Origin: Amycolatopsis tolypomycina
GTDB taxonomy: Bacteria > Actinomycetota > Actinomycetes > Mycobacteriales > Pseudonocardiaceae
DNA length: 64,000 nucleotides
Assembly (NCBI RefSeq): GCF_900105945.1
Contig: NZ_FNSO01000004.1
Span: forward strand, 4,774,001-4,838,000
Reading direction: 5' to 3'
Every line of letters begins with the position of its first letter. Position 1 is the stretch's first letter. This document shows, piece after piece, positions 14,957 to 64,000 of the stretch. The notes below the pieces were generated by a model. The model made no database searches. It was not told where the DNA came from and was given only the letters and a program-made list of their open reading frames with translations. The translations under genes and the position numbers were made by a program.

Positions 14957-15314
<358 letters not shown>

Positions 15315-33542: not shown

Positions 33543-33653
33543 GCGCCGCGCCTCGCCGGGCGCAAGCGCCGATTGCGGGAAACGCCCGTGACGGGTCCGG
33601 CACTCCTTGTAGTCTGGACCGGGTGGAGCAACCGAGCGGGTGAGGGGGCCGGG

Positions 33654-34271
33654 TTGGCGCTGCGGTACTACATCTACATCAGCGATGCGAAGGTCGACAT
33701 GCTGTTGCCGCAGGTCGATCCGAAGTTCGCCGGCAAGCGCAGCACCGAGGTCGGGGTCGACCTCAAGCTGGTCGCCGGCAAGCGCAAGGTGGAGTCCGAG
33801 GCGGACCGCGTCGCACGGTTGGAGCGGGTGGTGCGGCACCTCGACGACTTCTGCGACGTGGGCACGATCGACGAGCCCGGCCAGTACTTCCGGGGCAGGC
33901 TGGCCATGCGCACGCAGCAGGGGCGGGGCTTCAGCTACTTCGCCGGCGCGACCGAGGACACGGTGGTCGGGCTGGGTGGCTCCAGCGGTCACCTCGTCGG
34001 CGGGGGCACGCTGGAGCCGGACGGGTTGTTCCCGCGGTCGATGCTGCCCGGAATGGTCGCGGGCCTGACGGCGATGGCCGCCGACGAGGCACCGAAGGAC
34101 GCTCTGGAGCTGGCGTACCTGGCGCACCGGAACGGGCGCGGCGACGAGCAGGAGCTGGAGTTCGTGGCGAAGCGGCTACGGCACGGACCGAGCCCGTACC
34201 CGGAGCTGGACGCCGGCCGGCCGGTGCAGGTGCTGGTCGGCAGCCCCCTGTTCGTGGCGCTGGCCGACTGA
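33654..34271 (+). CDS. DUF7019-like protein, first gene of a kinase cassette
   Basis: A 205-residue protein starting LALRYYIYISDAKVDMLLPQ, with conserved-looking FAGKRSTEVGVDLKLVAGKR, a helix ESEADRVARLERVVRHLDDF, and FRGRLAMRTQQGRGFSYFAG strands. I recognise this pattern as the DUF7019 family, of unknown function. TTG at 33654 is chosen because GAGGGGG lies five bases upstream; no ATG or GTG is in frame nearby. Its stop overlaps the next start by one base (TGATG), so it is translated together with two kinases and may be their sensor, scaffold or substrate. Confidence 0.75.
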   Translation: MALRYYIYISDAKVDMLLPQVDPKFAGKRSTEVGVDLKLVAGKRKVESEADRVARLERVVRHLDDFCDVGTIDEPGQYFRGRLAMRTQQGRGFSYFAGATEDTVVGLGGSSGHLVGGGTLEPDGLFPRSMLPGMVAGLTAMAADEAPKDALELAYLAHRNGRGDEQELEFVAKRLRHGPSPYPELDAGRPVQVLVGSPLFVALAD

Positions 34272-37200: not shown

Positions 37201-37737
37201 GATCCACGTCTGGAGCAACGCGAGGACTCCCCTGTGGACCCTCGAGGAGCGGTCCGGCGACGAGGAACTGCGCTTCACGCCGGACGGCCGCATCCTGTTC
37301 GTCTCGCTCAAGCCGTGGATCGGTGCGTGGGACGTGGCGACCGGCGAGCTCCGGTACTCGGTGCAGGGCGGCGCCATGATGCGCGGGTTCGAGCAGGGCC
37401 TGGCGTTGAGCGGCGACGGCCGGCTCGCCGCGACGCCGGGCAAGGACGAGCTGACCGTGTGGCGGACCGAGGACGGGGCGGTGCAGCGGTCGCTGCCGGT
37501 GACCGGCCGGGTGCACGCCTTCACGCTCGGCGCCGACGGCACGTTCGCGGTCACCGGCGACCAGGACCGGCTGATCCGGGTGTGGGACCTGCGCACGGGA
37601 AATTGCCTGCGGGAGCTGGAGGGGCACCGCGCCGACCTCTACCGCATGATGCTGAGCGACGACGGCAGCAGGTTGCTCACCACCGACATCGGCTCGACCA
37701 TGCACGCGTGGGAACTGGTGTGGGACTACGACATCCC

Positions 37738-37741
<4 letters not shown>
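34271..37741 (+). CDS. Ser/Thr protein kinase fused to TPR and WD40 propellers
   Basis: A 1156-residue soluble kinase with no membrane helix. The catalytic domain is at about residues 12-275, with RSGGMGVVHRV (glycine loop), LAVKTP, VHQDVKPANVML (His-Gln-Asp replaces the usual His-Arg-Asp), TDFGLAKAL and YCSPEQAEA. TPR-like helices occupy about 285-415 (LSNQALSLLDLGRTEEAEEL, ADPYHLPAVYNQGLHKWRTG). About a dozen WD40 blades follow, e.g. VELWDLARGRQR and VRVWDAPTGRCLRVLG, interrupted near 735-800 by a helical insert. They end IRVWDLRTGNCLRELEGHRA. The propellers suggest a scaffold. The loss of the Arg implies no activation-loop phosphorylation need. It overlaps both neighbours. Confidence 0.92.
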
Positions 37742-44900: not shown

Positions 44901-44931
44901 GGTAGGTGCGGAGCTGGTCCTGCTCGGCCAT
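38959..44931 (-). CDS. Type I polyketide synthase, final module KS-AT-DH-KR-ACP-TE
   Basis: A 1990-residue last-module PKS. A short coiled-coil docking segment opens the chain (residues 1-30). Domains: KS (34-460, Cys208 in [22 protein letters not shown]); AT (about 550-850, Ser in GHSIGE near 638, HAFH near 736, so malonyl-CoA); DH (about 895-1170, intact [10 protein letters not shown] near 929 and [10 protein letters not shown]); KR (about 1345-1530, LDD motif for B-type, Ser and Tyr present, but the cofactor motif is TGGSGDLA where the third Gly is Ala); ACP (Ser near 1664 in GFDSL); TE (1780-1990, GYSAGG, Ser near 1846). It should add a C2 unit, set a C2-C3 double bond and release the product by cyclisation or hydrolysis. 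It starts 1 bp after the upstream PKS stop. Confidence 0.95.
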
Positions 44932-44932
44932 G

Positions 44933-47900
44933 TCACGTCATCCCGAAGTCGTTGTCGATGAGGTCGAAGAGTTCTTCGTCGGACGCCCCGTCGAGGTCAC
45001 GGGGGCCGTCGTCCGGCGCGGCGCCGGGATCGGCGGCGAGGGCCCGCAGGCGGGTGAGGATCCGGGCCCGCGCGTCCGGCCCGGCGGTCCGGAGCGCGGC
45101 GGCCACGCCGTCCAGGCCGGCGAGGGCCGCGGCTGTGGCGTCGTCGGCGTCCCCGGCGAGCCGGGCCTCGGTGAACGCGGCCACCGCGGCCGGCGACGGG
45201 TGGTCGAAGACCAGCGTGCTCGGCAGCTTGACGCCGGTGGCGGCGCTGAGCCGGTTGCGGAACTCCACGGCGATCAGCGAGTCGAAGCCGATCTCCAGGA
45301 ACCCGCGGTCGTCGCGGACCGCCGCGGCGGACGCGAGTCCCAGCGCGTCCGCGGCCAGCTGCCGCACCAGGCCGAGCACGGCCTCGGCGCGCTCCGCCGG
45401 GGCCGCGCCGCGCACCCGCCGCGCGAAGCCGGCCGGGTCCGGGCCGCGGCCGGTGTCCCGCCGCCGCGGCCCGGCCAGGCCGCGCAGCACCGCCGGGACC
45501 TCGGCCGGATCCGCCGCCGAGCGCAGGACGGTCGTGTCGACGCGCACCGGGACGACGACGGCGTCGTCCACGGCCAGCGCCGCGTCGAACAGTTCGAGGC
45601 CCTGGTCCGAGGACAGCGGGAGCAGGCCGATCCGGGCGCCGCGGGCGAGGTAGACGTCGCCGAGGCCGCCGCTCATCCCGCTCGGCTCGGCCCACAGGCC
45701 CCAGGCCAGCGCCTTCGCCGGCACGCCCGCGGCGCGCAACCGCCGGGCGAACGCGTCGAGGAAGGCGTTCGAGGCCGCGTAACCGGCTTGCCCGGCCGTC
45801 CCCAGCAAGCCCGACGCCGACGAGAACAGCAGGAACGCCGCCAGGTCGTGGTCCTTCGTCACCTCGTGCAGGGCCAGTGCCGCGTCGAGCTTGGGCCGCA
45901 GCACCGTCTCGATCCGCTCGGGGGTCAGGGCCGTGACGACGCCGTCGTCCAGCGCACCCGCCGAGTGCACGACCGCGGTGAGGTCCGGCAGGGCGGCCAC
46001 GACCTCGGCCAGCGCGGCCCGGTCCGCCGCGTCGCACGCGTGCCAGCTGACGTCGGCACCCCGGTCGCGCAGCTCCGCCAGCAGGGCGGCGGCTTCCGGG
46101 CTACCGGCCCCGCGCCTGCCGAGCAGCGCGAGCCGGGTGACGCCGTGGTGGCCGACCAGCCGCCGGGCCACCAGGCCGCCGATCAGCCCGGAGGCGCCGG
46201 TGACCAGCACGGTCCCGCCGCCCCACGCCGGAGCCGCCGCGCCGGGGGCCGCCCGGGTCAGGCGCGGGACGCGGAACTCGCCGTCCCGGACGGCCACCTG
46301 CGGCTCGCCGAGGGCGACAGCTGCCGCGAGGTGGTCGCCCGCCGGGTCGTCCACGAGCACGAACCGGCCGGGGTGCTCGGACTGCGCGGAACGCACCAGG
46401 CCCCAGAGCGCGGCCTGCGCCGGGTCCGGCAGCTCCCCGGTCGCGGCCGCGACGCCGCCGCGGGTGTGCAGCACGAGCCGGTCGGTCCCGGCGCGGTGCT
46501 CGTCGCCGAGGAAGGCCTGCACGAGTTCCAGCGCCCGGAACGTCGTCCGGCGGACGGTCGCCGCCGGATCGCCGTCCTCGGCGGCGAACCCGGCCAGCAG
46601 GATCCCGCTCGCGGCCGCCACGTCGTCCACTGTGGACACCTCGGTCCAGCTCGACGTCGGCTCGGCCAGGGCCGCGACGGGCACCCAGTCGAGCCGGTGC
46701 AGCCCGTCGGTGGCCGGGCGGGCCGGTTCGGGGAGCGGCCGCGTCACCAGCGCGCCGATCCGGGCGACCGGCTCCCCGGTCTCGCTCGCGACGGTCACCG
46801 CGAGCCCGTCGCCGGCCGGGGACAGCCGGACGCGCACCGCGGTGGCCCCGGCCGCGAACCGCGTGTAGCCGGTCCACGAGAACGGCAGGCCGTCCGGGGC
46901 GTTCCGCAGGCCGGACGCGTGCAGCGCGGCGTCCAGCAACGCCGGGTGCAGCCCGAAGGAGTCCGGTGCGCAGCCGTCCGGGAGGCGGACCTCGGCGTAG
47001 ACGTCGTCGCCTGCCACCCAGGCCGCGTGCAGGCCGCGGAAGGCCGGGCCGTAGCCGTAGCCCCGGTCGGCGAGGTCGTCGTAGAAGCCGGCCAGGTCGA
47101 CGGGAACCGCGCCGGGCGGCGGCCATCCGGGCAGTCCGGTCGGGGTCGGCGCGGCCGCCGACAGCACCCCGGTGGCGTGGCGTGTCCAGGTCTCCTCGCC
47201 GCCGGTCCGGGAGTGGACGGTGACGGCCCGCCGGCCCGACTCGTCCGGCTCGCCGACCAGCACCTGCGTCTCGACGGTGCCGGTCGTCCCGAGCACCAGC
47301 GGTGCTTCGAGCGTCAGTTCGTCGACGTCCGGGCACCCGGTCCGCTCGCCCGCGGCGCTCGCGAGTTCGAGGAAACCGGTGCCGGGGAACAGGATCACGC
47401 CGTGCACGGCGTGGTCGGCGAGCCACGGCCGTCCCGCGACGCCCAGCCGTCCGGCGAACGCGACTTCCGCGCGCCCGGCGACGGCGACGACCGCGCCGAG
47501 CAGCGGGTGCCCGGAGCCGGGTGGCCCGTCCGGCGAACCGCCGGACGGCGCACCGCGGTCCAGCCAGAACCGCTCGCGCTCGAACGGGTAGGTGGGCAGC
47601 GGGACGCGCCGCGCGTCCGGGAAGAACGGCCGCCAGTCGGCGGGCACACCCCGCACGTGCAGGGTGGCCACCGATTCGGCGAACCGGTCCATGCCGCCGT
47701 CGTCGCGGCGCAGGGTGCCGGTCACCACCGCGTCGGTGCCCCGGTTCTCGACGGTTTCCAGCAGCGCGTTCAGCAGCACCGGGTGCGGCCCGACCTCGAC
47801 GAACGCCGTGTGCCCCAGCCCGGCCAGCCGCTCGACGACCGGTTCGAGCAGCACGGTCTGCCGCAGGTTCCGGTACCAGTAGCCAGCGTCCGTCGCCGGG

Positions 47901-50900
47901 CCGTCCAGCCGTTCGCCGGTGACGGTCGACCAGAACGCGATCTCGGGCACCCGCGCCCGGATCGGGGCCAGCTCGCGCAGCAGCCGGTCGTGGATCCGCT
48001 CGACGTGCGCCGAGTGCGAAGCGTAGTCCACCGGCACCGCCCGGGCCCGCACGCCTTCGCCGTCGCAGTACGCGATCAGCTCACCCAGGGCTTCGGGATC
48101 GCCCGAGACCACTGTGGACGAAGGCCCGTTGACGGCGGCGAGCGCGAGCCGGCCGCCCCAGCGGGCCGGCAGGTCCGCCGCCGCGGCCCCGGGCAGGGCG
48201 ACCGAGACCATCCCGCCCTGCCCGGCCAGCTCGCCCAGTGCCCTGCTGCGCAGGGTGACCACGCGCGCAGCGTCCGAAAGGGACAGTGCACCGGAGACGC
48301 ACGCCGCGGCGATCTCGCCCTGCGAGTGCCCGACGACCGCGTCCGGCTCGACGCCGGCGGACTGCCAGAGCCGGGCCAGGGAGACCATCATCGCGAACAA
48401 CGCCGGCTGCACGACGTCGACGCGGTCCAGGACCGGTGCACCGGGATCGCCGAGCAGCACGCCGGTCACCGACCAGTCGGCGAACTCGCCGAGTGCGGCG
48501 TCGCATTCGGCCATCCGCTTGGCGAACACCTCCGACTCGCGCAGCAGCCGCGCCCCCATCCCCGCCCACTGGCCGCCCTGGCCGGGAAAGACGAACACGG
48601 TCCGGCCGGGGCTCGTCGCGGCGCCGGAGACCACCGAGGACGCCGGGCGGCCCGCCGCGAGTGCCTGCAGCGCCGCCCGTGGGTCCGCGGCCGGCAGCAC
48701 CACGGCGCGGTGCTCGAACCGGGGGCGCGCGGCCAGTGACGCACCCAGATCCGCCCACCGGACGTCCGCTTCACCATCCACATGGGACAGCAGGCGGGCG
48801 GCCTGCGCGGCCAGCGCGGTCCCGGTCTTCGCCGACAGGACCAGCGGCCCGGCCGCCGGGGCCGGGGCCGGGCGCGGGCGCTCGCGCACCGGTGCCTGTT
48901 CGAGCACGACGTGCGCGTTGGTGCCGCTCATGCCGAACGACGAGACACCGGCCCGGCGCGGCCGGCCGCCGTCGGGCCACGTCACGGCCTCGGTGAGCAG
49001 CCGCACCGCGCCCGCGGTCCAGTCCACCTGCGGCGTCGGCTCGTCGGCGTGCAACGTCCGCGGCAGCACACCACGGCGCATCGCCGCCACCATCTTGATC
49101 ACCCCGGCCACCCCGGCCGCCGCCTGCGTGTGCCCGATGTTCGACTTCACCGAACCCAGCCACAGCGGCGTTTCCCGGTCCTGGCCGTAGGTCGCCAGCA
49201 GCGCCTGCGCCTCGATCGGGTCGCCGAGCGTCGTGCCGGTGCCGTGCGCTTCCACGGCGTCCACTTCGGACGGCCGGAGCCCGGCCCGCGCCAGCGCGTC
49301 CCGGATCACCCGTTGCTGCGAAGGGCCGTTCGGCGCGGTGAGGCCGTTGCTCGCGCCGTCGGAGTTGACCGCGGAACCGCGGATCACCGCCAGCACCTCG
49401 TGGCCGTGGCGCTCGGCGTCGGAGAGCCGTTCCAGCAGGAGCACGCCCGCGCCTTCGCCCCAGGCCGTCCCGTCGGCGGCGGCCGAGAACGGCTTGCACC
49501 GCCCGTCCGGGGCCAGCCCGCGCTGCCGCCCGAACTCGACGAACGCGCCGGGGTTGCTCATCACGGTCACGCCGCCGGCCAGTGCCAGGGTGCATTCGCC
49601 GCGCCGCAGCGACTCGGCCGCCAGGTGCAGCGCCACCAGGGACGACGAACACGACGTGTCGATCGACAGGGCCGGGCCTTCCAGGCCGAAGGTGTAGGCC
49701 ACCCGGCCGGCCACGACGCTGGCGGCGATGCCGGTGAGCAGGTGCCCGGCCGCGGCTCCGGCGGCCGAGTCCCACGGCGGGCCGTAGCCCTGGTGCGTCA
49801 CGCCGGCGAACACGCCGGTGCGGCTGCCGCGCAGGCCGTGCGGATCCAGGCCGGCGCGTTCGACGGCCTCCCACGAGGTCTCCAGCAGCAGCCGCTGCTG
49901 CGGGTCCATCGCCCTGGCCTCCCGCGGGCTGATGCCGAAGAACGCGGCGTCGAACCCGGCGGCGTCGTCGAGGAAGCCGCCGGAGCGGGTGTAGGTCTTG
50001 CCGGGGAGTCCCGGCTCGGGGTCGTACAGGTCCCCGAGGTCCCAGCCGCGGTCGGCCGGAAAGCCCGAGACGGCGTCGCGGCCCTCGTGGACGAGGTCCC
50101 AGAACGCCTCCGGTGTGTCGGCACCCCCGGGGAACCGGCAGGCGATGCCGACGACGGCGATCGGCTCGTCGGCGGCGACCGGTGCGGCCGCGGTTTCGTC
50201 GAGGACGGTTCCCAGCGCCGCGCGGTGCAGTTCCGCGGCGAGCGCGGTGACGTCCGGGTGGTCGAACACGACGGTCGCCGTCAGCCGCAGCCCGGTGTCG
50301 CCGTTGAGCCGGTCGCGCAGGTCGACGGCGGTGAGCGAGTCGAACCCGAGTTCGCGGAAGGCACGGCCGGGGTCGACGCCGCCCGGCTCGTGGTGCCCGA
50401 GCACCGCGGCGACGTGCCCGCGGACCAGCGCGGTGACGAAGGGCAGCCGGTCGGCCTCGGGCAACTGCGCCAGCCGGGCCGCGAGCGGCGTGGTCCCGGC
50501 CGGGGCGGGGGCCGCGAACCGCCGTGCTTCGGGGAGTTCGTCCAGGAGGAAGCCGGGCCGGCCGGCGGTGAAGGCGGGCACGAAGGCGGCCCAGTCGACG
50601 TCGGCGACGACGACGGCGGTTTCGCCGTGGTCGAGGGCGTGCTGCACCGCGGCGACCGCGCGCCGGGGCGGCATCGCGGCGAGACCGCGACGGCGCAGGT
50701 GCTCCTCGACGCCGTCGTGGGCCGACATCCCGGTTTCGCCCCACGCGCCCCAGGCGATGGCCGTGGCCGGCAGGCCGCGAGCGCGGCGGCGCTGCGCGAG
50801 GGCGTCGAGGTAGGCGTTCGCGGCCGCGTAGGCCGCCTGGCCGTCGGCGCCCCACACCCCCGAAACGGAGGAGAACAGCACGAAGGCGTCCAGGTCGGTG

Positions 50901-53900
50901 CCGGCGAGCAGGTCGTCGAGGTGGGCCGCGCCGGCGGCCTTGGGCGCGGCGACCCGGGCCAGCTCGGCGGCGCTCGTGCCGTCGAGCGGGGTGAACTGCG
51001 CGACGCCCGCGGCGTGGACGACGGCGTTCGGCGGGTGCTCGGCCAGCAGCGCGGCGAGCGCGGCGCGGTCGGCGACGTCGCACGCGGCGACGGTCACCCG
51101 GGCGCCGAGTGCGGTCAGTTCGTCTCGCAGGTCCGCGGCGCCCGGCGCTTCGAGCCCTTGGCGGCTGCCGAGGACCAGGTGCTCGGCACCGTTCTCGGCG
51201 AGCCACCGGGCGACGTGCGCGCCGAGCGCGCCGGTGCCGCCGGTCACCAGGACCGTTCCGCGCGGGCGCCACGGCCGTTCGGGGGCGGTGGCGGGGGCCG
51301 CCGCCCGGACCAGCCGCCTGCCGTGGACGGCGTCCCGGCGGACCGCGACCCGGTCCTCGCCCGTCGTGCCGAGCAGGCCGGCGAACCGCGGCACCGCGCC
51401 GTCGGCGACGTCGGCGAGCCGGAGTTCGCGCTCCGGCGCCTCCAGCGCGGCCACCTGGCCGAGGCCCCAGATCCGGGCCTGGTCGGGGTCGGGGGTTTCG
51501 GCCGGGTCCACCGCGACGCCGGACCACGTGACGAGCCAGCACGGCGCGTCGATCCCCGCCAGGGCTTGCAGCGCGACGGTGGTGAGCGCGAGCCCGGCCG
51601 GGACCTCCGGGTGCCCGGGGTGGGGCGTGGTCCCGGCGGCCAGGAGCGAAAGGACACCGGCGGGGGTCGTGCCGCCCAGTGCGGAGTGCAGGCGGTCGGC
51701 GACGGCGTGGCGGTCCAGACCGGTGTCGAGCGTGACGGTGACGGCGTCCGGATCGAGGGCCCGGCGGATTTCCCCGGCCCAGGACGCGCCATCGGCCGGG
51801 AGCAGGACCAGCCAGGTGCCCGCTGGCGGGGTCGCGGGCCGCTCCGGCAGGGCCGGCCACGTGATCCGGTAGCGCCACGGATCGCCGGCAGGCTGGTCGT
51901 GCTCGAGCCAGAACCGCTCGCGCTGGAAGGCGTAGGCAGGCAGGTCGACGGTCCGCGCGCCGGCGAAGAACGCCGGCCAGTCGGCGTCCCGGACGTGCCC
52001 GAGCGCGGTCACGGCGGTGCCGGTCTCGGACTCCCCCGCTCGCAGGGCGGGGACGAAGGTGAGGTCTTCGGCGCACTCGGCACCCATCGCGGACAGCACG
52101 GCGTCCGGCCCGAGTTCGACGCAGGTCGTCACGCCCGCCTCGGCCAGCGCGCCGATCGCGTCGGCGAAGCGGACGGTCGCGCGCACGTGCTCGACCCAGT
52201 AGCCGGGGGTGGCCGGGTCGGCCGACGGCGAGACGGCCGAGACGAGCGGAATCCGGGGCCGCGCGTAGGACAGCCCGGCGGCGACCGCCCGGAATTCTTC
52301 GAGCATCGGCTCGACCAGCGGCGAATGGAAGGCGTGCGACACGTCGAGCCGCTTGGTCCGCCTCCCGAGTCCGGTGAAGTGGGCGGCGATCGCGGCGACG
52401 GCGTCTTCGGCACCGGAGACGACGACGGCTTCGGGCCCGTTCACGGCGGCGATGTCGGCGGCGATGTCGGCGGTGGCGGCCAACCGCGGACGCACTTCGG
52501 CTTCGGCCGCCTGGATCGCGACCATCGCGCCGGTCTCCGGCAGGGCCTGCAGCAGCCGCCCACGGGCGGCGACCAGCTTTCCGGCGTCGGCCAGGGAAAG
52601 CACCCCGGCGGCGTGGGCCGCCGCGAGCTCGCCGACCGAATGGCCCGCCAGCCGGTCCGGGCGGGCACCCCACGACTCGAACAGCCGGTAGAGCGCCACT
52701 TCCAGGGCGAAGATCGCCGGCTGGGCCAGGTCCGTCCGGGTCAGCTCGGCGCCGCCGAGCACGAGGTCGCGGTCGATCCCCGCGGCGGCGCACGCTTCGT
52801 CGAAGGCCCGCGCGTACACCGGGTACCGCTCGTGCAGCTCACGCCCCATCCCCCGGCGCTGGCTGCCCTGGCCGGTGAAGAGGAACGCGGGCTTCCCGGC
52901 CGCGACCCGCCGCGGCCGCGCGGTCTCGAACGCCGCCAGCAGCGTGTCCCGATCTTCACCGGCAAAGACGATCCGGTGCTCCCACGCGGACCGGGTGGTG
53001 AGCAGGGAGAACCCGATGTCCGATGGAGACAGTTCCGGGTGGTCCGCCGCGAAGGCACGCAGGCGCGCGGCCTGGTCCCGGGCCGCGGCCGGGGTGGCGC
53101 CGGTGACCACCCAGGGCACCACACCCTCGTGCGTGCCCGGTTCGTCGCCCTCCGGCGCCTGCTCGAGGACGACGTGCGCGTTGGTCCCGGAGATCCCGAA
53201 CGACGACACCCCCGCCCGGCGCGGGCGGCCGGTCTCCGGCCACGGCACCGGTTCGGACAGCAGGGAGATCGCTCCCGTGCTCCAGTCCACCTGCGGGGTC
53301 GGCTCGTCGAGGTGCAGGGACTTCGGCAGCACGCCGTGGCGCATCGCGTGCACCAGCTTGATGATGCTCGCGACACCCGCCGCGGCCTGGGTGTGGCCGA
53401 GGTTGGACTTCACCGAGCCCAGCCACAGCGGGGTTTCCCGGTCCTGGCCGTAGGTCGCCAGCAGCGCCTGCGCCTCGATCGGGTCGCCCAGCCGGGTGCC
53501 GGTACCGTGGGCCTCCACCACGTCGACGTCCGATGTGGACAGTCCGGCGTTCGCCAGGGCGGCCCGGATCACCTGCTGCTGCGCCGGTCCGTTCGGGGCG
53601 GTCAGGCCGCTGCTCGCGCCATCCTGGTTGATTGCCGAGCCCCGGACGACCGCGAGCACCGGGTGCCCCAGCCGCCGCGCGTCGGACAGCCGCTCGACCA
53701 GCAGCATGCCGACGCCTTCGCTCAGCGCCGTCCCGTCGGCGCCGGCGGCGAACGAGCGGCACCGCCCGTCGGCCGACAGCGCACCCTGCCGGGCGAACTC
53801 GACGAACATCATCGGCGTCGCCAGCACGGCGACCCCGCCGGCCAGCGCCAGCGCGCATTCGCCGCGGCGCAGGGATTCGCAGGCCAGGTGCAGGGCCACC

Positions 53901-54532
53901 AGTGACGACGAGCACGCCGTGTCGACGGTGACCGCGGGACCGGCCAGGCCGAGGGTGTAGGAGATCCGGCCCGAGGCGACGCTGCCGGAGATCCCGGTGC
54001 TGAGGTAGCCCTCGAGGTCCTCCGGCGCCCGGCTCAGCCAGGACCCGTAGTCGTGGTAGACGAGCCCCGCGAACACCCCGGTCCGGCTGCCGCGCAGGGA
54101 AAGCGGGTCGATCCGCGCGTGCTCGATCGCCTCCCACGACGCTTCGAGCAGCAGCCGCTGCTGCGGGTCCATCGCGAGGGCTTCGCGCGGGCTGATCCCG
54201 AAGAAGGCCGGGTCGAAGTCGGCGACGCCGTCGAGGAAGCCGCCCGAGCGCGTGTAGGTGGTGCCCGGCCGGTCGCGGTCGGCGCTGTAGAGCGCGTCGA
54301 GGTCCCAGCCGCGGTCGGCGGGGAACCCGGAGATGACGTCGGTGCCGGAGGTGACGACCCGCCACAGGTCCGCCGGCTCCCGGACGCCGCCGGGGAACCG
54401 GCAGCTCATCCCGACGACGGCGATCGGCTCGGCGGCCCCGGCGGTCAGTTCCCGGTTCCGGTGCTTGAGCCGCTCGTTCTCCTTCAGCGCGGCGCGCAGA
54501 GCCGCGACGACCTGTTCGGGCGTGGTGGTCAT
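44933..54532 (-). CDS. Type I polyketide synthase, two modules (KS-AT-KR-ACP, KS-AT-DH-KR-ACP)
   Basis: A 3199-residue bimodular PKS with an N-terminal docking coil ([20 protein letters not shown]). Module A: KS with Cys207 (TACSSSL), AT with GHSVGE and HAFH near 733 (malonyl), no DH, KR starting near 1092 with TGGTGALG. Module A KR lacks LDD but has Trp in SGVWGADGQ, so A-type (L-hydroxyl); ACP Ser near 1399. Module B: KS with DTSCSSS (Cys near 1628), AT with GHSQGE and YASH near 2170 (methylmalonyl), DH with [10 protein letters not shown] near 2375, KR with TGASGLIG and LDD (B-type), ACP Ser near 3085. The C-terminal [17 protein letters not shown] is a docking end. Predicted outputs are a hydroxyl and then a methyl-branched alkene. 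It begins 7 bp after the previous PKS stop. Confidence 0.95.
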
Positions 54533-54539
54533 CGTCGGC

Positions 54540-57500
54540 TCACCTTTCGTCGGGAGCGTCGGCGGGGTCGCCGAGGGCGAGCCGGACCAGGTCGGCGACG
54601 TCCATCGCGTCGATCCGGTCGTCGTCGGCGGGCGCCGCCGCCAGGTCGAGGACGGTGCGCACGAGCCCGGCTTCTTTCAGGCGCGCGTAACCGAGGGCGG
54701 AGAGGGCGGCGCGGAAGTCCCGTTCTTCGGTGTCCGCCGGTGGCCTGCCCGCGTCGGGGACGAGCAAGGTGGTGAGGTGGCCGGCGATGTCGGCCGCGGT
54801 CGGGTGGTCGAAGACGAGCGTCGCGGGCAGCCGAAGGCCGGTCAGCTCCCCGAGCCGGGTCCGCAGTTCGACGGCGGTCAGCGAGTCGAAGCCGAGCTGC
54901 AGCAGTCCGCGATCGGCACGCACGTGCGCGGGATTCGCCAGCCCGAGCACGGCGGCGATCTGTTCCCGCACCACCCCGAGCACGGCGGCCGGGCGGTCTT
55001 CCGCGGGCAGCGCGCCGAGCCGCTGGGCCCAGGTGCGGTCGGCCGCGGTGCGCTTGGCGGGCCGCACGAGTTTCCGCAGCACCGCGGGAACCGCGCCGGA
55101 CGGCGAGGCAGGCAGCACGGCGGCGACGAGCCCGGTGACCGCGACCCGCCGCACGGCTTCGACGAGGTCACCCGGCGCACGTTCCGGCGGCGGTGCCTCG
55201 GGAAGTCCCCAGGTGAGGGTCCGGGTCGAGTGTCCCAGCGCCCGCCGGTGGGCGGCCAGCGCCTCGGCGAGCGGGCTGTCGGCCGGGCCGGTGATCAGGA
55301 TCAGCTCGCCCGAGGACGGCAGCGGGGGAAGATCGGCCAGGGAAGCGATCCGCAGCCAGCCGGGAGAGCCGGGGTCGGCTGCGGCACGGCCGACAGCCCG
55401 CTCGCCGGACGCGGCGGCGGCAGCGGCTGCCTCGCCGGACCCGGCGCCACCTGCGGCATCAGCCGGCCCACCCGCCGCGGCACCGGAACCGGCGGCATCA
55501 GCGGCTGCCTCGCCGGACCCGGCGCCACCTGCGGCATCAGCCGGCCCACCCGCCGCGGCACCGGAACCGGCGGCACCAGCGGCACCGGCGGCTGCCTCGC
55601 CGGCCCCAGCGGCCGCCTCGCCAGACCCGGCACCACCTGCGGCATCAGCCGGCCCACCCGCCGCGGCACCGGAACCGGCGGCATCAGCGGCACCGGCGGC
55701 TGCCTCGCCGGCCCCAGCGGCACCAGCGGCCGCCTCGCCAGGCCCGGCACCACCTGCGGCATCAGCCGGCCCGCCCGCCGCGGCACCGGAACCGGCAACC
55801 ACGCCCGCCGCGGCGCCGGGTGCCTCGATCTCCTCTCCGACCACCACGACCGTGCCGGTGAAGGGTTGCGGCTCCGCCGTCGACGGCTGCACCCGCTCCA
55901 GCCGCGGGACGTGCACCGCTCCCCCGCGGACCGCCAGTTCCGGCTCGCCGAGCGCCGCGGCCGCCTTGGCCAGGTTCTCCGCGTCCGGTGAGTCGTCGAG
56001 GTCGGCCAGGACGATGCGCTTCTCCGCGAGACCGCGGATCGCGCTCCACACCGTGGCCCGCGCCGGGTCGGGCAGCTCCGCGTCGGACACCGCCACCGCT
56101 GCGCGGGTGGCCACGACCACCGGGCCCGGACCCGCCGTGCGGACCCACTCGAGCGCTTCCGCGGGGTCGTCGCAGATCCGCAGTGCACCCTCCGGCGGTC
56201 CGGAAAGGACCGGCAACGGCACCCACCCGAGCCGGAAGAGCGCGACCTGGCCCGGTGGCCCGGCCGGCACCGGCCGCAGGGTCAGTGACTCGGCCGACAG
56301 CACCGGCGACCCGGCCGGATCGGTCAGCTCCACCGCCAGCGCGTCCGCACCCGTCCGGTGCAGCCGGACCCGCGCCGCGGCCGCACCGGCGGCGTGCAGC
56401 GACACCCCGGACCACGCGAACGGCATGAGGTCCGGCCCGGACACCAGCCCGCCGGGGCCGATCGGCTGCAGTGCCGCGTCCAGCAGCGCCGGGTGGACGC
56501 CGTACCGGCCGGCGTCGGCCGCCTCGCGCTCGGGCAGGCGGACCTCCGCGAGCACGTCGTCGCCGTGCCGCCAGGCCCGGACGGCACCTCGGAACGCCGG
56601 TCCGTAGTGGACACCCGCGTCGGCGAGCACGTCGTGGAGGCCGTCGAGGTCCAGTGGCTCGGCCCCGTCCGGCGGCCACGGCCCGGTTCGCGGCGCCGGC
56701 ACGTCCCCGGCCGCCGTCAGGGTGCCCTCGGCGTGCTGGGTCCAGGCCGTGTCCGCGCCCTCCGGCCGGGTGAACACCCGGAACGGGTGACGGCCGGTCG
56801 CGTCCGGCTCGTCGGCGACCAGCCGCAGCTGCAGGGCGCCGCGGCCGGGCAGGACCACCGGCGCGGCCAGGACGAGGTCCTCGACGCGGTCGCAGCCGAG
56901 GTGCTCGCCCGCGCGGAACGCGAGTTCCAGCACCGCAGTGCCCGGCAGCAGCGTCGTCTCGCGCAGGGCGTGCTCGCCCAGCCACGCCGGGGCCGACGCC
57001 GTGATCCGGCCGGTGAACACGACCGCCTCCGACCCCGGCACCGCGACGACCGCGCCCAGCAGCGGGTGCCCGAGCGGGTTCACCCCGGCCGACGACACGT
57101 CCGCCGTGGCCGTGCCCGACCGCAGCCAGAACCGCTGCCGCTGGAACGGGTACGCGGGCAGTGGGATCCGCCGTCCGCCGGGCCGCAGCCCGGCCCAGTC
57201 GACCCCGACGCCGCGGACGTGCAGTTCGGCCGCCGACGTGACGAACTGGGTGAGCCCGCCTTCGCCGCGGCGAAGCGTGCCGGTCACGACCGGGGCCGGG
57301 GCGCCGGGCTCGTCGAGGAGTTCCCGGATCGCCGCCGGCAGCACCGGGTGCGGGCCGATCTCGACGAACGTCGTGTGCTTCTGCTCGGCCAGCGCCCGGA
57401 CCGCCCGGTCGAACCGCACGGGCTGCCGCAGGTTGCGGTACCAGTACCCGGCGTCCAGCTCGTTCCCGTCGAGCACGCCCCCGGTGACCGTCGAGTAGAA

Positions 57501-60500
57501 CGCCACCTCGCCGGTTCGGGGACGGACCGGGGCGAACGCGGCGAGCAGCTCGGCACGGAGCGGTTCCACCGCCGGGGAGTGCGACGCGAACGCGGCCGGG
57601 ATCAGCCGGGCCCGCACGCCCTCCGCCTCGCAGCGGGCGACCAGCTCGTGCAGCGCGCCGAGGTCACCGGCGACGGCGACCGAGTTCGGCCCGTTCACCG
57701 CCGCGATCGAAAGCCGGTCACCCCAGCCGGCGACGAGCTCGGCCGCGGCTTCTTCGCCGAGCGCGACCGGCGCCATGCTGCCGCGCCCGATGAGCACCCG
57801 GGAAATGGCGCTGCGCATGGCGATCACGCGGGCGGCGTCCGCAAGGGACAGTGCGCCGGCGACGCAGGCCGCGGCGATCTCGCCCTGGCTGTGGCCGACC
57901 ACCGCGTCCGGCCGCACGCCGGCGGCCGCCCACAGCTCGGCCAGGGAAACCATGACGGCGAACAGCGCGGGCTGGACGACCTCGACGTCGTCGAGCGAGG
58001 GCGCGCCCGGTGCGCCGCGCAGGACGTCGAGCACGGACCAGCCGGTGAACTCCGCCAGCGCCGCGTCGCATTCCCGCATCCGCCGCGCGAAGACGGGCGA
58101 GCTGTCGAGCAGCTCGACGCCCATGCCTGCCCACTGGCCGCCCTGCCCGGGGAACACGAAGACGGTCCGGCCCGGGGTCCCGGCGGTCCCGCGCACCACG
58201 GCGGGATCGCGGCGGCCCTCGGCCAGCGCCGGCAAGGCTTCCGCGGCCACGACGACGGCCCGGTGCTCGAACCGCGGCAACGCGGCCAGGCTGTGCGCCA
58301 CGTCCGCGAGGTCTTCGGCTGCCAGGACGGTGGCGATCTGCCCCGCACGGGCCCGCAACGCCTCGTCGGACCGGGCCGAAAGCACCAGCGGCATCGGCTC
58401 CGCCGCGGGGCCGGCGGGCTCCGCGGGCGGCGCCTCGGCCGCCTGCTCCAGGATCAGGTGCGCGTTCGTCCCGCTGATGCCGAACGAGGAGACGGCCGCC
58501 CGCGGCGCCCGGCTCGTCTCCGGCCAGGCGCGGTGCTCGGTCAGCAGGCGGACCGTGCCGGGCGACCAGTCGACGTGCGGGGTCGGCTCATCGAGGTTGA
58601 TCGTGCGCGGCAGTTCGCCGTGCCGCAGCGCCAGCACCATCTTGATCACGGCGGCGACCCCCGCCGCCGACTGGGCGTGGCCGATGTTGGACTTGAGCGA
58701 ACCGAGCCACAGCGGGTGGTCCGCCGTCCGGTCACGGCCGTACGTCGCCAGCAGCGCCTGTGCCTCGATCGGGTCGCCGAGCCGGGTGCCGGTGCCGTGG
58801 GCCTCGACCGCGTCGACGTCCGACGGGGACAGCCCGGCGTCGGCCAGCGCGGCGCGGATCACCCGCTGCTGCGACGGCCCGTTGGGCGCCGTCAGGCCGT
58901 TGCTCGCCCCGTCGGAGTTGACCGCCGAGCCGCGGATCACCGCCAGTACCTCGTGCCCGCGGCGCCGTGCGTCGGACAGCCGTTCCAGCAGCAGCATCCC
59001 GACGCCTTCGCCCCACGCCGTGCCGTCGGCGGCCGCCGCGAACGGCTTGCACCGCCCGTCCGGCGCCAGTCCGCGCTGGCGGCTCAGCTCGACGAACAGG
59101 TCCGTGTTCGCCATGATCGCCGCTCCGCCGGACAGCGCCATCGAGCACTCTCCGCGGCGGATCACCTGCACCGCCAGGTGCAGCGCCACCAGCGACGACG
59201 AACACGCCGTGTCCACGGTGAGGGCCGGGCCCTCCAGGCCGAAGGTGTAGGCGATCCGGCCGGACAGGACGCTGGTCGTGCTGCCGGTCAGCCGGTAGCC
59301 CTCCAGCTCGCCGGGGAACTCGCGCGAGTCGGTGCCGTAGCCGAGCGACGCGCCGCCGACGAAGACGCCGAGCCGTTGTCCCCGCACGGAACCCGGGTCG
59401 ACGCCCGCCGCTTCGAAGACCTCCCACGCGGTCTCCAGGAGCAACCGCTGCTGCGGGTCCATGGCCAGCGCCTCGCGCGGGCTGATCCCGAAGAACTCCG
59501 GGTCGAACTCGTCCGCGTCGTGCAGGAAGCCGCCCGCCCGCGCGTAGGTGGTGCCGGGGCGCTCGGGGTCCGGGTGGTAGAGCGCGTCGAGGTCCCAGCC
59601 GCGGTTGGCCGGCGGCCCGGTGACCGCGTCGGCGCCGTCGCGCACCAGCCGCCACAGGTCTTCGGGCGACCGGACGCCGCCGGGCAGCCGGCAGCTCATC
59701 GCGACGATCGCGACCGGGTCGTCACCGGCCTCGGTGACCACGGTGGCCACGGGCGCGGCCGCCGCACCGGACAGCTCGGCCCGCAGGTAGGCCGCGAGGG
59801 CTTCCGGGGTCGGCTGGTCGAACACGACGGTCGCGGGCAGTCGCAGCCCGGTTGCCGCCGCAAGCACGTTGCGGAGTTCGACCGAGCTCAGCGAGTCGAA
59901 CCCGAGGTCCTTGAACGCCCGGTCCGGCGCCACCTCCGCGGCCCCGGCGTGCCCGAGCACCGCGGCGACCCGGTCGCGGACCAGGTCGAGCACGTCTTCG
60001 GGCCGGGCGCGCCCGGGCTCCGGCCGCCGCGCGGTGGCCCCGGCGAGACCGCGCAGCGACGGCGGGACGTTCTCGCCGCCGCGGCGCAGGGCCGCGATGT
60101 CCAGTTCCGCCGCCACGACGAGCGGCCGGCCGAGCCGGCGGGCCGCGTCGAACAGGGCGAGCCCGCGCTCGTCGGCCAGCGCCGCCAGGCCGGCCCTGGC
60201 CAGCCGGGCGTGGTCGGCCGCGCCGAGCTGCCCGGTCATGCCGCCTTCGTGCGCCCACGCGCCCCAGGCGATCGACACGGCAGGCAGCCCGGCCGCGCGC
60301 CGGCGGGCCGCGAGGGCGTCGAGGGCCGCGTTGGCCGCGGTGTAGTTGCACTGGCCGGCGCCGCCGAAGAACGCCGACGCCGACGAGAACAGCACGAACT
60401 CGGCGAGGTCGCCGCCGCGGGTCAGCTCGTCGAGGTGCTGCGCGGCGGCGACCTTGGGCCGCAGCACGCGCTCCAGCCGCTCGGGCGTCATCGCCGCCAC

Positions 60501-63500
60501 CAGGCCGTCGTCGAGCGCGCCCGCGGCGTGGACGACCGCCGTCAGCGGGTGCTCGGCGGGGATCCCGGCCAGCAGGGCGGCGAGCCGGCCGCGGTCGGCG
60601 ACGTCGCACGCGGCGACGGTCACCGACGCGCCGAGCCCGGCCAGCTCCGCGGTCAGTTCGCGCACGCCGGGGGCGGCCGGGCCACGCCGTCCGGCCAGCA
60701 GCAGGTGCCGCGCACCCTGCCCGGCGAGGTGCCGGGCGACCAGGCTGCCGAGTGCGCCGGTGCCGCCGGTGACCAGCACCGTGCCCTCCGGCGACGGCCC
60801 GGCCGGCACGGTCAGCACGACCTTGCCGACGTGCTTGGCCTGGCTGACGAACCGGAACGCCTCGACCGCCCGCCGGATGTCCCATGTGGACAGTGGCAGC
60901 GGCCGGAGCGCACCGGCGGCGAACAGGTCGACCACGGCGCGGAGCATCTCCTGGATCCGCTCGGCGCCGGGCTCGGTGAGGTCGAACGTCCGGTAGGTCA
61001 CCCCGGCCGGGATCTCCGCGGCCGGGCGGACGTCCGTCTTGCCGAGCTCGACGAACCTGCCGCCGTCGCCCAGCAGGCCCAGCGACGCGTCGACGAACTC
61101 GCCGGCGAGCGAGTTCAGCACGACGTCGAACCCGGTGCCCGCGAACGCCGTCGCGAAGTCCAGGGTCCGCGACGAGGCGATGTGCGTGTCCGGCAGGCCG
61201 AGTCCGCGCAGGACGTCGTGCTTGGCCGGGCTCGCCGTGGCGTAGACGTCGGCGCCGAGGTGCCGCGCCAGCTGGATCGCCGCCATCCCGACCCCGCCGG
61301 CCCCGGCGTGCACGAGCACCTTCTCCCCGGCCCGCAGCCCGGCCAGGTCGCGCAGCCCGTACCAGGCCGTGAGGAACACGACGGGCACGGCCGCCGCCTC
61401 GGCGAACGTCCAGTCCGGCGGCACGCGCACCAGGTTTCGGCGGTCGGTGACGGCGAGCGGGCCGAAGGCGTGGTCGAGCAGGCCCAGCACCCGGTCGCCC
61501 GGCGCGAACCCCGTGACCCCCGGACCGGTCTCGGTGACGACGCCCGCGCCTTCGATGCCCAGCGGCGGGGCCTCACCCGGGTAGAGCCCGAGCGTGTTGA
61601 GCACGTCGCGGAAGTTGAGTCCCGCGGCCCGCACGGCGACCCGGACCTGGCCGGGGCCGGGCGGCTCGGCCGGGTGCGCGATCGGGGCGAGCCCGTCGAG
61701 TCGTCCCTTGTGGACGACGGCGAGCCGCCACGGTTCGTCCGGCAGGGTCAGGTCGTCGCCGGTGCTCGCCCGCTTCAGGCGCGGCACCAGCACTTCCCCG
61801 GCCCGGACGGCCACTTCGGGTTCGCCGGTGGCGATCGCGGCGGCGAGCCCGGCGGTGTCTTCGGGGCCGGCGTCGAGCAGCACGAACCGGCCGGGGTGCT
61901 CGGTCTGCGCCGACCGCACGAGCCCCCAGACGGCGGCCTGGTCCGGGTCGGTGACCGCGTTCCGGGTGCGCAGGACCAGCCGCGCGGCGGCGAACCGGTC
62001 GTCGGCCACCCAAGCCTGGCACAACGCGAGGGCGCGGGCCGGGTCCCCGGCCGGGACGACCACGGCCGCCGGCACCGGCTCGCCGGTCAGTTCCGCGAGG
62101 TCGCCGACCGGCACGACGTCCGGCCCGGTGACTTCCGGGGCAGTGACTTCCGGGGCGGTGACTTCCGGGGCGGGGACGCGGACCCAGTCCGGTTCGAGGA
62201 GGCCGTCGCGCGGCGCCGGAGCGGCCGGACGCAGGACGAGCGAATCCACCGTGGCCACCGGACGGCCCTCGGGGTCCGTGACGTGCAGCGACACGGCGTC
62301 CCCGGCAGCCGGGGTGAGGCGGACGCGGATGGCCGTTGGTCCCGGTGCGGTGACGGAAACCCCGCGCCAGGCGAACGGTACCGGGGTGCCGCCGTCGAGC
62401 CTGCCGGTGAACCCGAGCGCGTGCAACGCGCAGTCGAGCAACGCCGGGTGCAGCGTGCAGTTCCGGGCGTCGTCGCGGAGTTCCTCGGGCAGGACCGCCT
62501 CGGCGTAGACGTCTTCGCCGTGGCGCCAGGCGGCGGTGAGGCCGCGGAAGGCCGGTCCGTAGCCGTATCCCGCGTCGGCCAGCTGCTCGTAGAGCCGCTC
62601 GACGGCAATGGGTTCCGCGTCGGCGGGAAGCGGACGGCCGGAATCCGCCGGCGCACCGGGACCGGCGAGCCCGGTGGCGTGCCGGGTCCACTCGCCGTTC
62701 CGTCCGGAGTGGACGGTCAGCGGCCGGTGGCCGCCGTCGTCGGCCGCCCCGGCCCGGACCTGGATCTGGACCGATCCGTGGTCCGGCAGGACGAGCGGGG
62801 TCTCCAGGGTGAGTTCCCCGACGGTCGCGCAGCCCGCCGCGGCGGCGGCCTGCAGCGCCAGTTCGAGGAGGGCGGTGCCGGGCACCAGCGTCGTCCCGCC
62901 GATCGTGTGGTCACCGAGCCAGCCGGGAGCGGTCGCGGAGAGCGTGCCGGTGACCAGCGCGCCATCGCCGTCCGCCAGCCGGACGGCCGTTCCGGCCAGC
63001 GGGTGCCCGGACCGGTCCGGCGCCTGGCCGGGGGCCAGCCAGAAGCTGCGGTGCCGGAACGGGTAGGCGGGCAGGTCGGCGAGCCGGCCACCGGGGCACA
63101 GGCTCGCCAGGGCGACGTCGTGGCCCAGCACGTGCAGGCGGCCGGCGGCCTCGACGGCCGTGCGCGCGCCGGGGCGGTCGGCGCGCTGCGCCGGGACGAA
63201 GTCGATGGCGGGGTCGATCGCCGGGCCGAGCGCGGACAGCACCCCGTCGGGCCCGATCTCCAGGCACGTGGTGACGCCGTCGGCGCCGAGCCCCGCGACC
63301 GCGTCGGCGAACCGCACGGTGCCGAGCACGTGGCCGGCCCAGTACTCCGCCGTCGCCGGATCGCCGGCCGCGGCCGGCCACAGCGGGATGGCGGGCTCGG
63401 CGAATTCCAGCCCGGCCAGTACTTCGCGGAACCGCTCGACCATCGGGGCCATCAGCGGCGAATGGAACGCGTGCCCGCCGGGCAGGCGTTTCGTCCGGCG

Positions 63501-64000
63501 GCCCCGGGCGGCGAACTCCGCGGCGACGGCCTCGACGGCGGCCGCGTCCCCCGAGAGCACGACGGCGGCCGGGCCGTTGACCGCCGCGATCGCGGCCTCG
63601 CCGGTCAGCGCGGCACGGACTTCGGCTTCGCCCGCCTCGACCGCGATCATCGCGCCGGCGGCGGGCAGGTCCTGCATCAGCCGGCCGCGCGCCGCGACCA
63701 GCGTTCCCGCGTCCGCGAGTGACAGCACGCCGGCCACGTGCGCCGCCGCGATCTCCCCGACGGAGTGTCCGATGAGGACGTCCGGGCGCAGCCCCCACGA
63801 CTCGGCGAGCCGGTACAGCGCGACCTGCAGCGCGAACAGCGCCGGCTGCGCGAACTCCGTGCGGGCGAGCTCGTCGCCGTCGGCCACGACCGCCGGGTCG
63901 AGACCCGCCGCCGCGCAGGCGGCGTCGAAAGCCTCGGCGTACACCGGGAACTGCGCACGCAGGCCGCCGCCCATCCCGGCGTACTGGCTGCCCTGGCCGG
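54540..64000 (-). CDS. Type I polyketide synthase, partial; AT-DH-ER-KR-ACP then KS-AT-DH-(gutted KR)-ACP
   Basis: The 5' part lies beyond the window; the edge falls at the AT start (GQGSQYAGMG). First module: AT with GHSVGE and HAFH (malonyl, to about 63050); DH with HTIGGTTLVP (about 62900); ER (about 61680-60790, NADPH motif VHAGAGGVGMAAIQL, GLYPG); KR with TGGTGALG and LDD (60785-60230); ACP (Ser near 59892). Second module: KS (59720-58450, TACSSS near 59203); AT with GHSQGE but FASH at 57579-57590; DH where HALRETTLLP has Glu for the motif Gly (about 56940-56979); KR structural half, then no catalytic core but an Ala/Gly-rich repeat (55411-55812) and a short KR tail; ACP (Ser near 54883) and docking end. 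The second module should leave a ketone. Confidence 0.95.
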   Translation of the reverse strand, partial: GQGSQYAGMGGGLRAQFPVYAEAFDAACAAAGLDPAVVADGDELARTEFAQPALFALQVALYRLAESWGLRPDVLIGHSVGEIAAAHVAGVLSLADAGTLVAARGRLMQDLPAAGAMIAVEAGEAEVRAALTGEAAIAAVNGPAAVVLSGDAAAVEAVAAEFAARGRRTKRLPGGHAFHSPLMAPMVERFREVLAGLEFAEPAIPLWPAAAGDPATAEYWAGHVLGTVRFADAVAGLGADGVTTCLEIGPDGVLSALGPAIDPAIDFVPAQRADRPGARTAVEAAGRLHVLGHDVALASLCPGGRLADLPAYPFRHRSFWLAPGQAPDRSGHPLAGTAVRLADGDGALVTGTLSATAPGWLGDHTIGGTTLVPGTALLELALQAAAAAGCATVGELTLETPLVLPDHGSVQIQVRAGAADDGGHRPLTVHSGRNGEWTRHATGLAGPGAPADSGRPLPADAEPIAVERLYEQLADAGYGYGPAFRGLTAAWRHGEDVYAEAVLPEELRDDARNCTLHPALLDCALHALGFTGRLDGGTPVPFAWRGVSVTAPGPTAIRVRLTPAAGDAVSLHVTDPEGRPVATVDSLVLRPAAPAPRDGLLEPDWVRVPAPEVTAPEVTAPEVTGPDVVPVGDLAELTGEPVPAAVVVPAGDPARALALCQAWVADDRFAAARLVLRTRNAVTDPDQAAVWGLVRSAQTEHPGRFVLLDAGPEDTAGLAAAIATGEPEVAVRAGEVLVPRLKRASTGDDLTLPDEPWRLAVVHKGRLDGLAPIAHPAEPPGPGQVRVAVRAAGLNFRDVLNTLGLYPGEAPPLGIEGAGVVTETGPGVTGFAPGDRVLGLLDHAFGPLAVTDRRNLVRVPPDWTFAEAAAVPVVFLTAWYGLRDLAGLRAGEKVLVHAGAGGVGMAAIQLARHLGADVYATASPAKHDVLRGLGLPDTHIASSRTLDFATAFAGTGFDVVLNSLAGEFVDASLGLLGDGGRFVELGKTDVRPAAEIPAGVTYRTFDLTEPGAERIQEMLRAVVDLFAAGALRPLPLSTWDIRRAVEAFRFVSQAKHVGKVVLTVPAGPSPEGTVLVTGGTGALGSLVARHLAGQGARHLLLAGRRGPAAPGVRELTAELAGLGASVTVAACDVADRGRLAALLAGIPAEHPLTAVVHAAGALDDGLVAAMTPERLERVLRPKVAAAQHLDELTRGGDLAEFVLFSSASAFFGGAGQCNYTAANAALDALAARRRAAGLPAVSIAWGAWAHEGGMTGQLGAADHARLARAGLAALADERGLALFDAARRLGRPLVVAAELDIAALRRGGENVPPSLRGLAGATARRPEPGRARPEDVLDLVRDRVAAVLGHAGAAEVAPDRAFKDLGFDSLSSVELRNVLAAATGLRLPATVVFDQPTPEALAAYLRAELSGAAAAPVATVVTEAGDDPVAIVAMSCRLPGGVRSPEDLWRLVRDGADAVTGPPANRGWDLDALYHPDPERPGTTYARAGGFLHDADEFDPEFFGISPREALAMDPQQRLLLETAWEVFEAAGVDPGSVRGQRLGVFVGGASLGYGTDSREFPGELEGYRLTGSTTSVLSGRIAYTFGLEGPALTVDTACSSSLVALHLAVQVIRRGECSMALSGGAAIMANTDLFVELSRQRGLAPDGRCKPFAAAADGTAWGEGVGMLLLERLSDARRRGHEVLAVIRGSAVNSDGASNGLTAPNGPSQQRVIRAALADAGLSPSDVDAVEAHGTGTRLGDPIEAQALLATYGRDRTADHPLWLGSLKSNIGHAQSAAGVAAVIKMVLALRHGELPRTINLDEPTPHVDWSPGTVRLLTEHRAWPETSRAPRAAVSSFGISGTNAHLILEQAAEAPPAEPAGPAAEPMPLVLSARSDEALRARAGQIATVLAAEDLADVAHSLAALPRFEHRAVVVAAEALPALAEGRRDPAVVRGTAGTPGRTVFVFPGQGGQWAGMGVELLDSSPVFARRMRECDAALAEFTGWSVLDVLRGAPGAPSLDDVEVVQPALFAVMVSLAELWAAAGVRPDAVVGHSQGEIAAACVAGALSLADAARVIAMRSAISRVLIGRGSMAPVALGEEAAAELVAGWGDRLSIAAVNGPNSVAVAGDLGALHELVARCEAEGVRARLIPAAFASHSPAVEPLRAELLAAFAPVRPRTGEVAFYSTVTGGVLDGNELDAGYWYRNLRQPVRFDRAVRALAEQKHTTFVEIGPHPVLPAAIRELLDEPGAPAPVVTGTLRRGEGGLTQFVTSAAELHVRGVGVDWAGLRPGGRRIPLPAYPFQRQRFWLRSGTATADVSSAGVNPLGHPLLGAVVAVPGSEAVVFTGRITASAPAWLGEHALRETTLLPGTAVLELAFRAGEHLGCDRVEDLVLAAPVVLPGRGALQLRLVADEPDATGRHPFRVFTRPEGADTAWTQHAEGTLTAAGDVPAPRTGPWPPDGAEPLDLDGLHDVLADAGVHYGPAFRGAVRAWRHGDDVLAEVRLPEREAADAGRYGVHPALLDAALQPIGPGGLVSGPDLMPFAWSGVSLHAAGAAAARVRLHRTGADALAVELTDPAGSPVLSAESLTLRPVPAGPPGQVALFRLGWVPLPVLSGPPEGALRICDDPAEALEWVRTAGPGPVVVATRAAVAVSDAELPDPARATVWSAIRGLAEKRIVLADLDDSPDAENLAKAAAALGEPELAVRGGAVHVPRLERVQPSTAEPQPFTGTVVVVGEEIEAPGAAAGVVAGSGAAAGGPADAAGGAGPGEAAAGAAGAGEAAAGAADAAGSGAAAGGPADAAGGAGSGEAAAGAGEAAAGAAGAAGSGAAAGGPADAAGGAGSGEAAADAAGSGAAAGGPADAAGGAGSGEAAAAAAASGERAVGRAAADPGSPGWLRIASLADLPPLPSSGELILITGPADSPLAEALAAHRRALGHSTRTLTWGLPEAPPPERAPGDLVEAVRRVAVTGLVAAVLPASPSGAVPAVLRKLVRPAKRTAADRTWAQRLGALPAEDRPAAVLGVVREQIAAVLGLANPAHVRADRGLLQLGFDSLTAVELRTRLGELTGLRLPATLVFDHPTAADIAGHLTTLLVPDAGRPPADTEERDFRAALSALGYARLKEAGLVRTVLDLAAAPADDDRIDAMDVADLVRLALGDPADAPDER
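55411..55812 (-). repeat. In-frame Ala/Gly/Glu/Pro minisatellite inside the PKS gene
   Basis: Four near-identical copies of a core of about 54 bp, encoding GSGAAAGGPADAAGGAGSGE-like peptide, begin at 55441, 55519, 55627 and 55744. The spacings are 78, 108 and 117 bp, all multiples of three, filled with shorter GCN-type repeats (AAAGAAGAGE). The array occupies the place where the Rossmann core of a ketoreductase should be. The reading frame stays open throughout. Confidence 0.9.
62124..62173 (-). repeat. 15-bp tandem repeat in the DH-ER linker
   Basis: Three adjacent copies of a 15-bp unit around GTGACTTCCGGGGC encode APEVTAPEVTAPEVT in the inter-domain linker before the ER of the first module. 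This short in-frame repeat is likely tolerated because it lies between domains. Confidence 0.75.

Follow-up and report, generated by a model that had tools for sequence, protein, structure and literature searches.

A ketoreductase lost piecemeal and its predicted non-catalytic stub, with an in-frame minisatellite, in a polyketide synthase of Amycolatopsis tolypomycina

How a domain can drop out of a modular polyketide synthase (PKS) while the module stays intact is a long-standing question, which the locus described here now makes testable. The window, a stretch of 64,000 nucleotides from Amycolatopsis tolypomycina (G000:C4:4774001-4838000, source genome 10.36 Mb), carries at its right edge a type I PKS of three proteins, encoded on the minus strand. 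In module 3 of the first of these, PKS protein 1, an in-frame Ala/Gly-rich tandem array lies inside what should be the ketoreductase (KR), and the question is what the repeat has to do with the loss of the enzyme. Our best explanation, to which we give a probability of roughly 0.7, is that the KR lost all its catalytic motifs through separate gaps, that a compact non-catalytic stub is left and the beta-ketone is passed on unreduced, and that the repeat appeared after the loss.

In the whole genome the gene of PKS protein 1 (minus strand, stop at 54540) extends past the window and has 6,082 codons from the first ATG, stop included. It encodes a loading unit (KS with DTAQSSS, AT, ACP), module 1 with a KR, module 2 with DH-ER-KR, and module 3 with a DH, the collapsed KR and an ACP. 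We compared eight orthologues: the window itself, P0001, G044 (A. rifamycinica), G055, P0002 (Amycolatopsis sp. lyj-346), P0003 (NBC_00355, the same as G067), P0004 and P0005.

Pfam finds a KR in the five other modules and none in module 3. The Pfam KR profile PF08659 has no match in module 3 nor in any of six collapsed sequences at E up to 1, and NCBIfam gives partial matches alone, far under the cut-off. The NADPH motif TGGxGxLG is absent from module 3, as is the catalytic Ser/Tyr motif (FSS..Y.A.N), which all five other KRs of the PKS contain; a Gly motif of the form TG[GA][TS]GxLG/IG occurs in four of those five, the one in module 6 reading TGGSGDLA. The original prediction of a KR without TGGTGxLG and without catalytic Ser and Tyr was thus correct, and the missing motifs support a catalytically dead KR. 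The KS, AT and ACP motifs of module 3 are all intact. Module 3 is therefore predicted to pass on an unreduced beta-ketone, in line with the ketone proposed earlier; with a starter and six extensions it would presumably lie at C9 of a predicted 14-membered ring and product, a position that we map by analogy to erythronolide.

The domain has not vanished. PKS protein 1 contains the structural-half motifs and GTVVVVGEEIEAPG, followed by the Ala/Gly array and then the AEALAAHRRALGHSTRTLTW tail. Compared with seven intact KRs in an alignment, the structural half of the collapsed KRs is short by about 20 to 45 residues, and from the catalytic half most of the NADPH part beyond strand one is missing, together with the helix that precedes the Ser strand, the loop with Ser and Tyr, and the lid; the strands and helices between the lost segments are retained. 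Judged from this alignment the loss is piecemeal, with several separate gaps and conserved strands between them. The array-free collapsed KR of P0003 has 271 residues, the seven intact KRs 421-464. That a structural half and a tail survive had been recognised before; the extent had not, as the remnant is wider than described (the mini-KR of Table 1), its structural half is itself shortened and its tail has no lid.

Homology points to a KR-derived domain, as judged by three lines of evidence. With E values up to 1 admitted, five of six collapsed members match PF22953, the structural-half Rossmann domain, the best of them at 1.8e-13, and the A. rifamycinica locus L009, to which G044 is identical (100%, 463 residues), scores 28.7 bits against a cut-off of 27. 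A profile of 148 intact catalytic halves matches all eight tails collinearly (E 8e-6 to 0.017, 7.0 to 15.7 bits); among 200 shuffled tails the best reached 9.3 bits and the second 3.5. The module 3 remnant also has the KR fold in the predicted structure. With the six collapsed sequences alone AlphaFold gave a pLDDT of 40, and a good model was obtained after adding the seven intact KRs. In this model the mini-KR is folded and the array site forms one of its loops, joining the first and second strands of the catalytic half, so that the earlier idea of a flexible linker does not fit well if a linker between domains is meant. The stub likely holds module 3 together, a predicted structural role.

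In all eight orthologues the catalytic motifs are gone, the same flanking strands are kept and the frames are open. The Ala/Gly array proper is present in two of them, the window and P0001, and copies of its unit elsewhere number about one and a half in G055 and one partial in G044. P0003 has no array and a scar of 27 residues, and P0004 and P0005 have short non-repetitive scars. In P0002 three copies of another unit are found, about 28 residues long and Pro/Ala-rich, of which P0004 holds an apparent single seed (judged by eye). Scar length runs from 27 to 175 residues across the orthologues, and the spans, tabulated for seven of the eight sequences (without P0002), from 100 to 248; refilling to normal KR size was rejected as a role of the repeat on this range. 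A tree of 2,910 gap-free columns splits the window, P0001, G044 and G055 from P0005, P0002, P0003 and P0004 (support 100) and groups P0003 with P0004 (100) with P0002 beside them (83), G044/G055 standing at 34. Since all eight orthologues are collapsed and few have arrays, and given this tree, the collapse of the KR is common to the clade, and the arrays probably arose later, likely at least twice.

Loss of the KR does not need the repeat, because the array-free orthologue has also collapsed. In the original prediction the KR core went in a single deletion, and an expanding repeat then filled or bridged the gap and now acts as a flexible linker. This would explain why the array sits where the NADPH half is gone and why the window span, at 248 residues, is not shorter than the normal stretch. 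However, the same collapse is found without an array (P0003, 27-residue scar) or with short non-repetitive scars (P0004, P0005), there are several gaps with conserved strands between them, and the predicted model places the site in a loop of a unit that is folded, so that we consider a deletion with a bridge very improbable. Replacement by the repeat is not supported by the comparison of eight collapsed orthologues, one of them array-free and two with unrelated-looking arrays.

We instead predict that the repeat is a largely neutral, surface-exposed loop excursion that followed the loss and was neither its cause nor a bridge over it. The spacing of the unit cores, 117, 108 and 78 bases, is in each case a multiple of three, and the reading frame is indeed kept through all copies, as first noted. 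Of 44 rows from a search of its own genome, the array matches itself alone at full length and the runner-up covers 117 bases at 74% identity; a mobile or dispersed element was rejected accordingly. By its tandem copies and by the copy-number difference between close relatives (four in the window and three in P0001, at the protein level) the array qualifies as a variable-number minisatellite. The two proteins are 99.0% identical with 58 mismatches, and the 46-residue array difference is the sole gap between them in 6,055 columns. Module 2 has an in-frame repeat of its own after the DH (window 62115-62177; APEVT, a 15-base unit in 4.2 copies); the length of this repeat varies among the window, P0001, G055 and G044, and it is absent from P0002.

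It is extremely improbable that the window array is an assembly artefact. GC-rich repeats do assemble poorly, and unit cores 3 and 4 are identical, but the same unit recurs in other genomes (three copies in P0001, one or one and a half in G055/G044) and the copies bear distinguishing substitutions, which confines the doubt to the exact copy number. Assembly collapse likewise fails to explain the missing KR, as independent genomes show the same collapsed domain.

Another possibility is that array length is adaptive and tunes the movement or the contacts of the ACP within module 3. Two lineages have arrays at one site, the sole indel between two 99%-identical proteins is there, and three of the four varying codons among the four unit cores differ synonymously only. 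Four codons are too few, however, orthologues that look working have scars of anything from 27 to 175 residues, and arrays are found elsewhere in PKSs, as neutral slippage predicts; we regard an adaptive loop as improbable. Strong tandem arrays occur in five of 123 proteins, three at the KR scar, one near position 1448 of P0005 and one near position 6566 of P0080, so arrays can arise outside this scar too. In P0005 a 10-residue unit of the RTSEPAEPAA type is repeated about eight times, in module 1 and in front of an AT region.

The stub could also be plainly decaying, a functionless remnant heading for complete loss with the array as another sign of it. Between the window and G067 the structural half has a dN/dS of 0.55 (0.37-0.84) and the tail one of 0.47 (0.26-0.76), compared with 0.31 and 0.29 in the module 2 KR, and identity is 57-62% for the module 3 remnant compared with 81-85% for the module 2 KR; the closer orthologue pairs offer few changes for dN/dS. 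The module 3 DH motif drifts as well, with the Gly of HxxxGxxxxP gone in five of the eight orthologues and kept by the module 2 DH in all eight; this DH has no hydroxyl substrate if the KR is dead. On the other hand, dN/dS is under 1 with upper bounds of 0.84 and 0.76, and orthologues of 80% identity conserve the strands and the helix on either side of the scar and are free of frameshifts and stops. Decay alone is thus unlikely, and constraint on the KR remnant appears weakened yet present, its relaxation being suggestive.

Several observations weigh against the explanation that we prefer, a stub retained after piecemeal loss with the repeat added later. Part of the confidence of the AlphaFold model is borrowed from the seven added intact KRs, and two of the eight real tails (7.0 and 7.2 bits) score below the best of the 200 shuffles (9.3). 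For dN/dS, the intervals of the module 2 DH, 0.41 (0.28-0.60), and AT, 0.40 (0.27-0.59), overlap with the remnant's own, which is why relaxation is suggestive only, and the structural half gives 1.16 between the window and G055, on few changes. The one or one and a half units of G044/G055 fit contraction there as well as expansion in the window, and the unrelatedness of the Ala/Gly and Pro/Ala arrays was judged by eye. Finally, no cluster among the orthologues has a functional KR in this position, a case that the original prediction had foreseen. None with an intact KR in module 3 came up in genome searches that scored 20, 6 or 5 candidates per genome (below), so the history of the deletions is inferred.

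The order of events was probably as follows. Point or segment losses would have inactivated the KR in an ancestor, and selection for the ketone, or none for its reduction, could then have allowed further segments to be lost. The two-lobed core would have been retained because the module could not do without a body to separate its DH from its ACP. With the catalytic motifs gone, the loop behind the first catalytic-half strand may have been freed from constraint, so that in-frame changes of length were tolerated. Replication slippage or unequal exchange on GC-rich DNA could have amplified the local loop sequence on two separate occasions, one giving the Ala/Gly array that the window shares with its close relative and the other the Pro/Ala array of lyj-346.

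The stub was found in four of 80 genomes of the genus (best 20 candidates per genome scored), in four of 390 of the family (best 6 per genome) and in one of 394 of the class, its own genome (best 5 per genome), the 394 being drawn evenly from a larger group. Searching genome contigs for related loci confirmed at least three, one of them an orthologue. For homologous proteins 875 candidates were scored and the best 120 of 334 matches listed; in these 120, a survey by regular expression covered 166 KR spans and found this collapse in orthologues only. The survey samples relatives, not all PKSs, and its expression missed P0001. It flagged 19 spans: P0002-P0005 are collapsed KRs, the spans in P0021, P0034, P0052 and P0063 are short because the expression found a false end within a KR, P0041 (Actinomadura macrotermitis) has a full-length KR without the motifs, P0075 is a short span that has both motifs nevertheless, and in the remaining nine the Tyr motif is accompanied by a variant Gly motif. 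A literature search, which covered few subscription papers, gave no report of such a stub or of a repeat within a PKS KR.

A bolder reading, possible though doubtful, makes the collapsed KR a building block of a new kind for PKSs: a dedicated scaffold, small, two-lobed and without catalysis, whose loop at the former NADPH site varies freely in length and is repeatedly filled by tandem repeats. If so, nature would offer here a domain loss caught halfway and still in progress, and engineers would have an insertion site at hand. In any case the site is one on an assembly line that tolerates inserts of 27 to 175 residues, and living orthologues show the whole series: the collapse that all share, a scar with no array, short scars, arrays of one to four units, and another array of separate origin. 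There is also a caution, that a repeat inside a dead domain need not have killed it.

The coordinates are collected in Table 1, where the docking label on the C-terminal region of module 3 is our assumption from its position. Elsewhere in the window, a kinase-domain protein with WD40-type propellers (34271-37741) adjoins a DUF7019 protein (33138-34271), and a run of 30 C at 15153-15182 may vary in length or may reflect a problem with the sequencing.

Table 1. Features of the PKS and of the collapsed KR, in window coordinates.
Feature	Position	Strand	Remark
PKS protein 1, in-window part (module 2 end and whole module 3)	54540..63998	-	gene runs on to G000:C4:4846785
Second PKS protein: module 4 (KS-AT-KR-ACP), module 5 (KS-AT-DH-KR-ACP)	44933..54532	-	
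Last PKS protein: module 6 (KS-AT-DH-KR-ACP) and thioesterase	38959..44931	-	
Module 3 DH region	56298..57098	-	Glu in place of Gly in HxxxGxxxxP
Collapsed KR (mini-KR), array included	55050..56297	-	
KR structural-half remnant	55860..56297	-	array-shorter orthologue L009 matches PF22953 over this half
GTVVVVG, kept first strand of catalytic half	55839..55859	-	without TGGxGxLG motif
In-frame Ala/Gly-rich tandem array	55405..55796	-	TRF
Repeat unit core, copy 1	55725..55793	-	69 bases
Repeat unit core, copy 2	55608..55676	-	69 bases
Repeat unit core, copy 3	55500..55568	-	69 bases
Repeat unit core, copy 4	55422..55490	-	69 bases, identical to copy 3
Kept KR tail (GELILITGP to PAVLRKLVRP end)	55050..55310	-	without Ser-Tyr loop and lid
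Module 3 ACP and C-terminal docking region	54540..55049	-	GFDSL intact

Compared with the KRs of modular PKSs, for example erythromycin KR1 (2fr1), module 3 lacks TGGxGxLG, the Ser/Tyr motif and a Pfam KR match, and its array-free form is far shorter (lengths above). The usual picture of an inactive KR is a domain of full length in which residues have changed, such as that of erythromycin module 3. As in the full-length inactive KR of P0041, no reduction is expected and a ketone should result; however, P0041 has altered motifs at full length, with 351 residues from the structural-half signature to the ACP, whereas the kind seen in the window lacks whole segments. In animal fatty acid synthase a non-catalytic pseudo-KR half (4piv in the fold search) supports a working KR; module 3, in contrast, keeps no working KR half. 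The array resembles the in-frame minisatellites of interdomain linkers, such as the 10-residue repeat of P0005, in that the copy number varies between close relatives and the frame is kept, but its place is the scar of a deletion, within what used to be an enzyme domain. KR3 and KR6 of the azalomycin F synthase are described as truncated by about 50 residues, two helix-strand pairs of the structural subdomain only (PMC9899208). They share with module 3 a shortened structural half in a KS-AT-DH-KR-ACP module, but they keep the catalytic half, which in module 3 has been deleted as well.
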